Below, one piece after another: positions 48,070 through 49,639 of a stretch of DNA of 64,000 nt. Under the pieces are notes generated by a model. That model worked only from the letters and a program-made list of their open reading frames with translations. It was not told where the DNA came from and did no database searches. Position 1 is the stretch's first letter; every line of letters begins with the position of its first letter. The stretch is from Acidobacteriota bacterium (lineage in GTDB: Bacteria; Acidobacteriota; Thermoanaerobaculia; Multivoradales; Multivoraceae): NCBI GenBank assembly GCA_029263415.1, contig JAJCXN010000015.1:248001-312000 (forward strand), given 5' to 3'. The position numbers and the translations under genes were made by a program.

Positions 48070-48426
48070 TCAGACTCGGCGCTCTTGGATCCGAGCAGCC
48101 TTGCCGCGCAATTCGCGCAGGTAGTACAGCTTCGCACGGCGGACCTTGCCATGGCGGACGACTTCGATCTTGTCGATCGAAGGCGAGTTGAGCGGGAAGA
48201 TGCGCTCCACGCCGATGCTGCCTGACATCTTACGAACGGTGAAGGTCTCGCGAGTTCCGCCACCACGACGAGCAATCACGACGCCCTCAAAGATCTGGAT
48301 TCGCTGCTTGCTGCCCTCAACAACCTTGACGTGCACCTTGACGGTGTCTCCGGCTCGGAAGTCTGGAATTCCCTCTTGGAGGTAGGCCTGCTCGTGACGT
48401 TGAACGATGTCTAGTGTGCTGCTCAT
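48070..48426 (-). CDS. rplS: 50S ribosomal protein bL19
   Basis: Ribosomal protein at the subunit interface, 118 residues, full length. Diagnostic: [37 protein letters not shown] and the end [31 protein letters not shown]. Normally directly follows trmD; here 515 bases separate them, filled by the inverted-repeat element and a separate promoter, giving a leader of about 130 bases. A hairpin with a GAAA loop at about 48507-48531 lies in this leader. Confidence 0.97.
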
Positions 48427-48563: not shown

Positions 48564-48593
48564 ATTATCTCTCGTTCCGCTCAACCCTTGCAA
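48564..48593 (-). promoter_or_regulatory. Promoter of rplS
   Basis: On the minus strand TTGCAA (48588-48593) and GATAAT (48564-48569) are 18 bases apart. It lies between the inverted-repeat element and rplS, so it can replace read-through from trmD. Confidence 0.6.
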
Positions 48594-48629: not shown

Positions 48630-48944
48630 CTAGCAGTCCGTGGTGAAACTCCCGTTGGCTGAGTTTGAGCGCCGTGGCTCTAGCTGTGTTGCGCCGTGCG
48701 CGCGGGCGATGTCCCACGAGAGGCTACGCACCGGTGTCATCGTTGAGCGTGCGCAGGGACGCAGATGAACTACGACGCCCAAACCCAACGGGCGCGGGGC
48801 TTTGGGCGGCCAAACTCGTACCGAGGCTCGTCAACGATACGCCGGTGCGTAGCCTCCCGTGGGACATCGCCTCCTCGCCGCGGCACGAACTGACCACCCA
48901 GATCCCCGCGCTCAGTCCCGCGCGAGTTCACCACGGACTGCTAG
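48630..48944. mobile_element. 315-bp palindromic MITE-like element
   Basis: Bounded by perfect 18-bp terminal inverted repeats, CTAGCAGTCCGTGGTGAA (48630-48647) and its complement (48927-48944). A second pair of long arms lies inside: GATGTCCCACGAGAGGCTAC... at 48708-48748 pairs with 48828-48868 with few mismatches. A central CGCCCAAA/TTTGGGCG repeat lies at 48777-48808. No transposase frame is present. Both ends carry CTAG, which can be read as a 4-bp target duplication of the YTAR type used by IS5-like elements. The right end provides the trmD stop codon. Confidence 0.75.
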
Positions 48945-49639
48945 CGCTGACGCCCCTGCCAGCGCTGCCACAAGTCTGGCCGCTTCTCGCGGGTCGCACT
49001 CTCGGCCTGCTGCTGGCGCCAACGGTCGATCTTGGCGTGATCTCCAGAGCGCAGAACCGGCGGAACCACCAGCCCCTCAACTTCTTCGGGGCGGGTGTAG
49101 TGCGGATAATCGAGTAAACCTTTCCGGAAGCTGTCGTTGACCACCGAATCGTTGAACCCAACCACCCCAGGAATCTGTCGAGAGACAGCCTCGATCAAGA
49201 CCATCGCGGGCAGCTCGCCGCCTGAGAGAACGTAGTCTCCAATGGAGATCTCCTCATCAACCACAAGTTCCGCCACCCGCTCGTCGATCGCCTCATAGCG
49301 CCCACACAACAGCAGCAGACGCTCGTGATTCGCGAGTTCGCGAACCTTGGCCTCGCACAAGGTCTGGCCTTGGGGCGTCAACAGGATTCGATGGGGTGGG
49401 CTTGGGTGCAGCTCAGTCACGGCCCGTACCGCTTCGATCCACGGCTGTGCCTTCATCACCATGCCACCGCCACCGCCATAAGGCTCGTCGTCGACAGTGT
49501 GGTGCTTGTCGGTCGCGAACTCCCGAAGGTCTGTGGTGCACAACGTGAGCAGTTCCTTGCGTTGCGCGCGCCCGATCAAGCTGCACTCGCTAAAGCTCTG
49601 CAAGAGCTCCGGGAAGATCGTTAGAACGTCGAAACGCAT
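48941..49639 (-). CDS. trmD: tRNA (guanine-N1)-methyltransferase
   Basis: Methylates G37 of tRNAs reading CNN codons. SPOUT-fold marks in 232 residues: MRFDVLTIFPEL, DDEPYGGGGGMVMK, LLLCGRYEAIDERV and the knot loop EEISIGDYVLSGGELPAMVLIEAVSR followed by PHYTRPEEVEG. The ATG overlaps the rimM stop by 19 bases. The final codon plus TAG fall at the edge of the inverted-repeat element, so the original C-terminus may have been altered slightly on insertion. Confidence 0.96.
   Translation of the reverse strand: MRFDVLTIFPELLQSFSECSLIGRAQRKELLTLCTTDLREFATDKHHTVDDEPYGGGGGMVMKAQPWIEAVRAVTELHPSPPHRILLTPQGQTLCEAKVRELANHERLLLLCGRYEAIDERVAELVVDEEISIGDYVLSGGELPAMVLIEAVSRQIPGVVGFNDSVVNDSFRKGLLDYPHYTRPEEVEGLVVPPVLRSGDHAKIDRWRQQQAESATREKRPDLWQRWQGRQR

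Follow-up and report, generated by a model that had tools for sequence, protein, structure and literature searches.

A palindromic MITE-like element at the trmD stop codon of an Acidobacteriota bacterium and the short repeats nested in its arms

What is the palindrome that lies between trmD and rplS in this Acidobacteriota bacterium, and has it reshaped the genes on either side? The window, i.e. the whole stretch of DNA analysed here, comprises 64,000 nucleotides (G000:C15:248001-312000, where G000 denotes the bacterium's own genome, a 6.89-Mb assembly of 60 contigs); the comparison set contains one genome per species. On the minus strand the order is rimM, trmD, the element, rplS and rnhB. 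We consider it highly probable that the locus is a two-level nest of parasitic DNA, consisting of a MITE at the trmD stop codon and of 20-21-bp repeats in both of its arms. At the first level, a MITE would have entered a CTAG with which trmD already terminated (C-TAG) and would have duplicated it; with insertion at such a pre-existing site TrmD would have remained unchanged while the gap grew to 514 nt. At the second level, the 20-21-bp repeat would have inserted into both arms without target duplication and, since both were struck at the same target sequence, the hairpin would have stayed paired. The features are listed in Table 1.

Table 1. Coordinates of features at the trmD-rplS locus (positions within the window)
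Feature	Position	Strand	Remarks
MITE-like element	48630..48944		315 bp as drawn, both CTAG copies included
Left terminal inverted repeat	48630..48647	+	18 bp, perfect; includes CTAG target copy 48630-48633
Right terminal inverted repeat	48927..48944	-	18 bp, perfect; includes CTAG target copy 48941-48944
Inner complementary arms	48698-48737 and 48839-48878 (span 48698..48878)		40 nt, 88% complementary
Central dyad	48777..48807		GCCCAAA (48777-48783) and TTTGGGC (48801-48807), read by eye; the fold prediction pairs otherwise
Micro-repeat TCCCACGAGAGGCTACGCAC	48712..48731	+	20 bp; left arm, at GGCGATG^CGG; empty site in sister C51a matches the joined flanks at 39/40
Micro-repeat TCCCACGGGAGGCTACGCAC	48845..48864	-	20 bp; right arm, mirror site; empty site in sister C51a matches the joined flanks at 38/40
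Promoter-like pair TTGCAA-18-GATAAT	48564..48593	-	rplS leader, outside the element; 1 found, mean of shuffles 0.1
trmD	48941..49639	-	Pfam tRNA_m1G_MT, 215.6 bits; stop TAG 48941-48943 within the right CTAG
rplS (ribosomal protein L19)	48070..48426	-	Pfam Ribosomal_L19, 169.8 bits

Anatomy of the element and its setting

The initial annotation described a palindromic, transposase-free element with CTAG at either end, and this description holds. Terminal inverted repeats are present and a transposase gene is absent, as in a MITE; the perfect ends and the highly complementary arms are accompanied by a predicted minus-strand fold of -201.5 kcal/mol (z -13.1), equalled by 0 of 100 shuffles. Half of each inner arm is a 20-bp micro-repeat. 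Matches of the element to Rfam families (MIR1437, 43.3 bits with a gathering threshold of 168; Xoo5, 17.2 bits with a threshold of 50) are rejected as hairpin artefacts.

The element does split trmD from rplS, with a spacing of 514 nt, measured to the start of RplS, rather than the 515 given initially. For 28 further distinct genomes of the order, gaps were measured to the residue that aligns with the first one of the window's RplS, and their median is 73.5 nt (range -17 to 444); from this set G072 was dropped as a duplicate of G045, and G036 gave no trmD match. The element's ends occur in this gap in 0 of the 28 relatives. Both genes are found in 52 of 80 more distant loci (one of which, L060, is the G045 genome again), with gaps from -16 to 2607 nt that reach at least 450 nt in 14 of the 52 and fall between 500 and 530 nt in none.

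The very stable fold, and the fact that it separates genes that are mostly close together in the order, might suggest that the palindrome is kept for a function in the host, such as a terminator, a processing site or an mRNA stabiliser between trmD and rplS. We regard such a role as improbable: the stability follows from the anatomy of a MITE, none of the 28 relatives has the ends in this gap, and a consensus scan gave no terminator-like site at the locus. The separate -35/-10 pair that had been ascribed to rplS is present as a promoter-like pair and lies in the rplS leader, outside the element. Of the 28 relatives, 14 have GATAAT or CATAAT in the interval from trmD to rplS, and 5 have the reversed motif there; for 10 longer gaps, including that of the window, the numbers are 9 and 2. 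As the motif recurs in relatives that lack the element, the pair is probably ancestral.

Copies, relatives and target duplication

The MITE is multi-copy. A search of its own genome with the element returns 40 alignments; the copy that matches best, apart from the element, has a length of 276 bp and 81% identity. The end motifs (up to 3 mismatches) are found 40 times, compared to 13 for the reversed control. The initial annotation would have been contradicted by a single copy whose spacing was conserved in distant relatives; the search for multiple copies that it proposed, like the 52 distant gaps above, gave the opposite picture. Twelve listed copies in the genome have both ends recognised and measure 62-342 bp; the others are truncated. 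Across the order, the end motif is found in 26 of 72 genomes (own included). A search with the element gave matches in 3 of 41 genomes. The sister copy has no match in the plasmid collection (distant mode).

A search for a full insertion sequence with the same ends, also proposed initially, succeeded in part. Such ends adjoin DUF772/DDE transposase genes in two relatives, G034 (C4) and G052 (C28), whose products have DUF772 and DDE_Tnp_1 domains. The G034 element has the left end CTAGCTGCCCGTGGTGAAAGTC and a degenerate right end read by eye; the G052 gene is partial and lies at a contig end. Under the NCBIfam cut-offs the G034 transposase scores 190.8 bits for IS1182 (cut-off 270) and 114.2 for IS5_4 (cut-off 140), and its family is therefore named only as the nearest, IS1182/IS5. 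The own assembly yielded no transposase gene beside matching ends (P0001 search, run without a positive control). A DUF772 gene on contig C12 was considered as a partner and rejected, as its element has other ends and is of the ISNCY type. This element (G000:C12, L381 1495-3198; 430.6 bits, cut-off 325; inverted ends CTAGCCTAGATCCTGTCC) accounts for the sole DUF772 gene detected in the genome.

Whether the flanking CTAG is a target duplication is not provable from the window copy alone: CTAG is its own reverse complement, and ends of the type CTAG/CTAG cannot separate a duplication from an inverted repeat. Two other observations bear on this point. In G002, a 280-bp copy (L143) interrupts an open frame that stays open when the flanks are joined with one CTAG and shifts when they are joined with zero or two; Pfam recognises nothing in the restored product, and the evidence here is the reading frame. 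G034 contains a pair of 166-bp copies (L369 and L370), each flanked by CTAA on both sides in direct orientation. Among a set of 16 copies, CTAG stands at both ends in 10 and the end tetramers are unequal in 6 (C39, C1, C38, C12, C46 and G002_C2); nine copies from relatives comprise two CTAA/CTAA, four CTAG/CTAG and three unequal pairs. The YTAR-type duplication suggested in the initial annotation is thus well supported by copies in relatives, as a 4-bp duplication of CTAG or CTAA.

The element at 48630-48944 is best read as a MITE whose ends match those of elements with a DUF772/DDE transposase nearest to IS1182/IS5, and a transposase of this related kind would have mobilised it. With MITEs of this type it shares terminal inverted repeats, the absence of a transposase, multiple copies, the CTAG/CTAA duplication and ends like those adjoining transposase genes. 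It differs in that no partner transposase is found in its own genome and in that the G000 copies tend to sit on TAG stop codons.

Two further groups of MITEs were observed. A second family, with ends CTAGGAGCTTGCTGAAGAA or similar, is represented by L240 and L241 (G000 C15:37000-38300 and C46:204000-205300) and by L145 and L146 (G002). It is similar to an element in G034, about 1.35 kb long, that encodes an IS5_4-type transposase (254.1 bits, cut-off 140). Its interior looks like that of the first family, and its two G000 copies carry micro-repeats. MITEs of 166 bp with the same ends as the first family and a different-looking interior occur in G034, G026, G052 and G038 (L369-L373, L376, L377 and L147).

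The trmD stop codon

The initial annotation held that the first triplet inside the right end is the TAG of trmD and that the element supplies this stop. The TAG (48943-48941 on the minus strand) in fact corresponds to bases 2-4 of the right-hand CTAG. Lying inside the duplicated target, it should predate the insertion, and we infer that it does; the trmD stop was probably hit by the element and not made by it.

Other copies sit on in-frame TAG stops likewise. Among 25 MITE ends in G000, 8 have a CTAG whose TAG terminates a frame that is open for 200 codons or more, compared to 0 of 50 for the other two frames at the same ends (p = 6e-5); inclusion of four doubtful loci gives 10 of 29 versus 0 of 58. 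The same test applied to the CTAG sites of the window yields 8 of 255. For the set labelled as relatives, which includes at least one G000 locus (L192), the bias does not reach significance (9 of 38 versus 8 of 76, p = 0.06). Five other G000 copies end frames recognised by Pfam at the TAG, namely those of a Cu2_monoox_C protein, a TPR/multihaem (cytochrome) protein, a DUF1501 protein, an AMP-binding protein and an OPT transporter. A sixth upstream frame, glutamate-synthase-like, is found at a doubtful copy, and the upstream frames of L005, L006 and L014 have no Pfam match.

The alternative of the initial annotation, that the element created the stop and altered the C terminus of TrmD, has in its favour that the TAG falls within the element as drawn and that TrmD C termini, compared as had been proposed, differ among relatives. 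The position of the TAG within a duplicated target and the five genes above, which end at a TAG in the same manner, argue against it, and we hold it to be very unlikely.

Short repeats within the arms

The account of the hairpin in the initial annotation stands, but it overlooked two nested 20-bp insertions, which we judge to be the more interesting part of the element. Each is a copy of a 20/21-bp micro-repeat, TCCCACGGGAGGCTTCGCAC. When the two exact 20-bp blocks are removed, the window element and the 276-bp sister C51a are identical in 258 of 277 columns (93%).

With up to one mismatch, G000 contains 34 matches to the 20-bp form and 20 to the 21-bp form; the reversed control gives 0 for either. 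The 71 other genomes of the order hold a single match to the 20-bp form, equal to the single match in the control and hence at chance level. A looser 21-bp pattern (2 mismatches) gives 36 matches versus 20 in the control; this search is noisy, and some of the 71 copies collected from the fetched loci (up to 2 mismatches, 41 flank clusters) are therefore due to chance. Copies with at most one mismatch number 55, or 26 when made non-redundant by their flanks (18 more strictly). The micro-repeat is thus a dispersed small repeat of about 20 nt with many copies. Of the 55 copies, 26 have a MITE end no more than about 350 bp away, 18 of these being 21 bp long, seven 20 bp and one 19 bp; of the 29 copies elsewhere, 28 are 20 bp long (20 versus 21 bp, p = 8e-8).

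Exact insertions of 20-21 bp, with filled and empty sites, occur in more than one kind of repeat. Nine of the 55 copies, the two in the window arms among them, have an empty counterpart at 36 or more of 40 bases, each above its own shifted controls; the best pair, L276 and L342, agrees at 40/40. The filled and empty sites show no target duplication. The remaining copies have weaker empty counterparts or only self-matches. An unrelated repeat, about 400 bp long, bears the micro-repeat at different positions in two of its copies, and each of the two is empty where the other is filled. We note that many copies lie inside other repeats, so that some filled sites may stem from one event. An excess of sites in hairpin loops (10 of 26, background 4.6, p = 0.01) is lost under stricter removal of redundancy (5 of 18 versus 3.05, p = 0.18) and is not claimed.

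The two copies in the window, each of 20 bp, have the rare form GGCTACGCAC in common; of the 71 collected copies, only one more contains it. Copying between the arms, or a donor common to both, may account for this pair; as both arms share GGCGATG^CGG, two independent insertions at one target suffice.

The filled and empty sites suggest that the micro-repeat moves as such. That a free-standing mobile unit of 20-21 bp is active in this Acidobacteriota lineage, inserting exactly, without target duplication and often into repeats, and being copied from arm to arm, is a tentative reading to which we give somewhat less than an even chance. Two other explanations are less probable. The segments could be immobile, an ancestral sub-motif of the MITE such as a protein-binding site, with the empty copies arising by precise deletion. 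The proximity of nearly half of the copies to a MITE end agrees with this, as does a similar sequence, TCCCGCGGGAGTTTCACCAC (3 mismatches), in the subterminal part of the MITE. We nevertheless consider it unlikely: the segment occupies several positions in the MITE (one copy, L009, has it in both orientations) and also occurs in unrelated repeats that have homologous empty copies; gain is more likely than base-exact loss at this many sites; and G002, which has such MITEs, gave 0 matches when searched for the 20-bp form. Alternatively, the micro-repeat may be a scar or an internally deleted remnant of a larger element that excises, since clean insertions without target duplication can be scars too. 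In the fetched G000 loci, 29 left and 26 right halves co-occur and the five exceptions are variant copies, which speaks weakly against a scar, as these loci were chosen for holding the whole repeat; we rate this explanation as quite improbable.

Several side observations concern the same repeats. The repeat of about 400 bp that hosts 20-bp micro-repeats is represented by L290-L293 (G000 C38, C44, C54 and C55). A second micro-repeat of about 24 bp (ACCCGAGCAAGCTCGAGCACAGG) has 8 matches with up to 3 mismatches versus 0 in the control; it is seen at G000:C41:168026-168048, C15:37645-37667 and C26:103074-103144, within MITE copies and, on C26, as a tandem of three units. Repeated, frame-broken peptides such as RYFFIPSNRLNDIV (L236, L242, L262, L265, L270 and L258) look Y1-transposase-like by eye, Pfam gave no transposase match for them, and several of these repeats have a micro-repeat inside.

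Cyanobacterial SDRs, described by Elhai et al. in 2008, are reportedly 21-27 nt long, dispersed and mobile, and occur nested and within mini-transposons. The micro-repeat resembles them in being very short, dispersed, precisely inserted, present in mini-transposons and nested; it differs in its length of 20-21 bp, its sequence and its phylum, the copies described here being from an Acidobacteriota lineage. SDR5 inserts precisely within HIP1 (PMC4390886). SMR-A of the archaeon Haloquadratum walsbyi (PMC3119063) is likewise non-coding, lacks a target duplication and prefers other mobile elements, at palindromes, its targets being IS605-type elements and PATEs; unlike the micro-repeat, it is about 110 bp long and has terminal inverted repeats. 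REP/REPIN sequences (PMC3116915) are also short and dispersed, but many micro-repeat copies lie within other repeats; a connection to a RAYT (Y1, TnpA-REP) transposase was suspected by eye from the Y1-like peptides and found no support in Pfam. See also PMC2884548 and PMC6006769. The literature searched yielded nothing joining Thermoanaerobaculia with miniature inverted-repeat elements, IS1182 with CTAG and target site duplication, or SDR elements with nested insertion in bacterial repeats.

The mini-transposon illustrates a way for an element that targets CTAG to insert into a core ribosomal operon and leave the gene unharmed, namely by landing on a TAG stop codon. For the micro-repeat, a second, unrelated lineage with base-exact pairs of filled and empty sites and dozens of copies would make targets, orientation and mechanism testable. 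To our knowledge, the movement of a sequence of about 20 bp has remained unexplained since SDRs were described in cyanobacteria. If the SDR-like reading is true, the 20-21-bp unit would be among the smallest mobile elements described, as far as we know, and would serve as an outgroup to the cyanobacterial SDRs.
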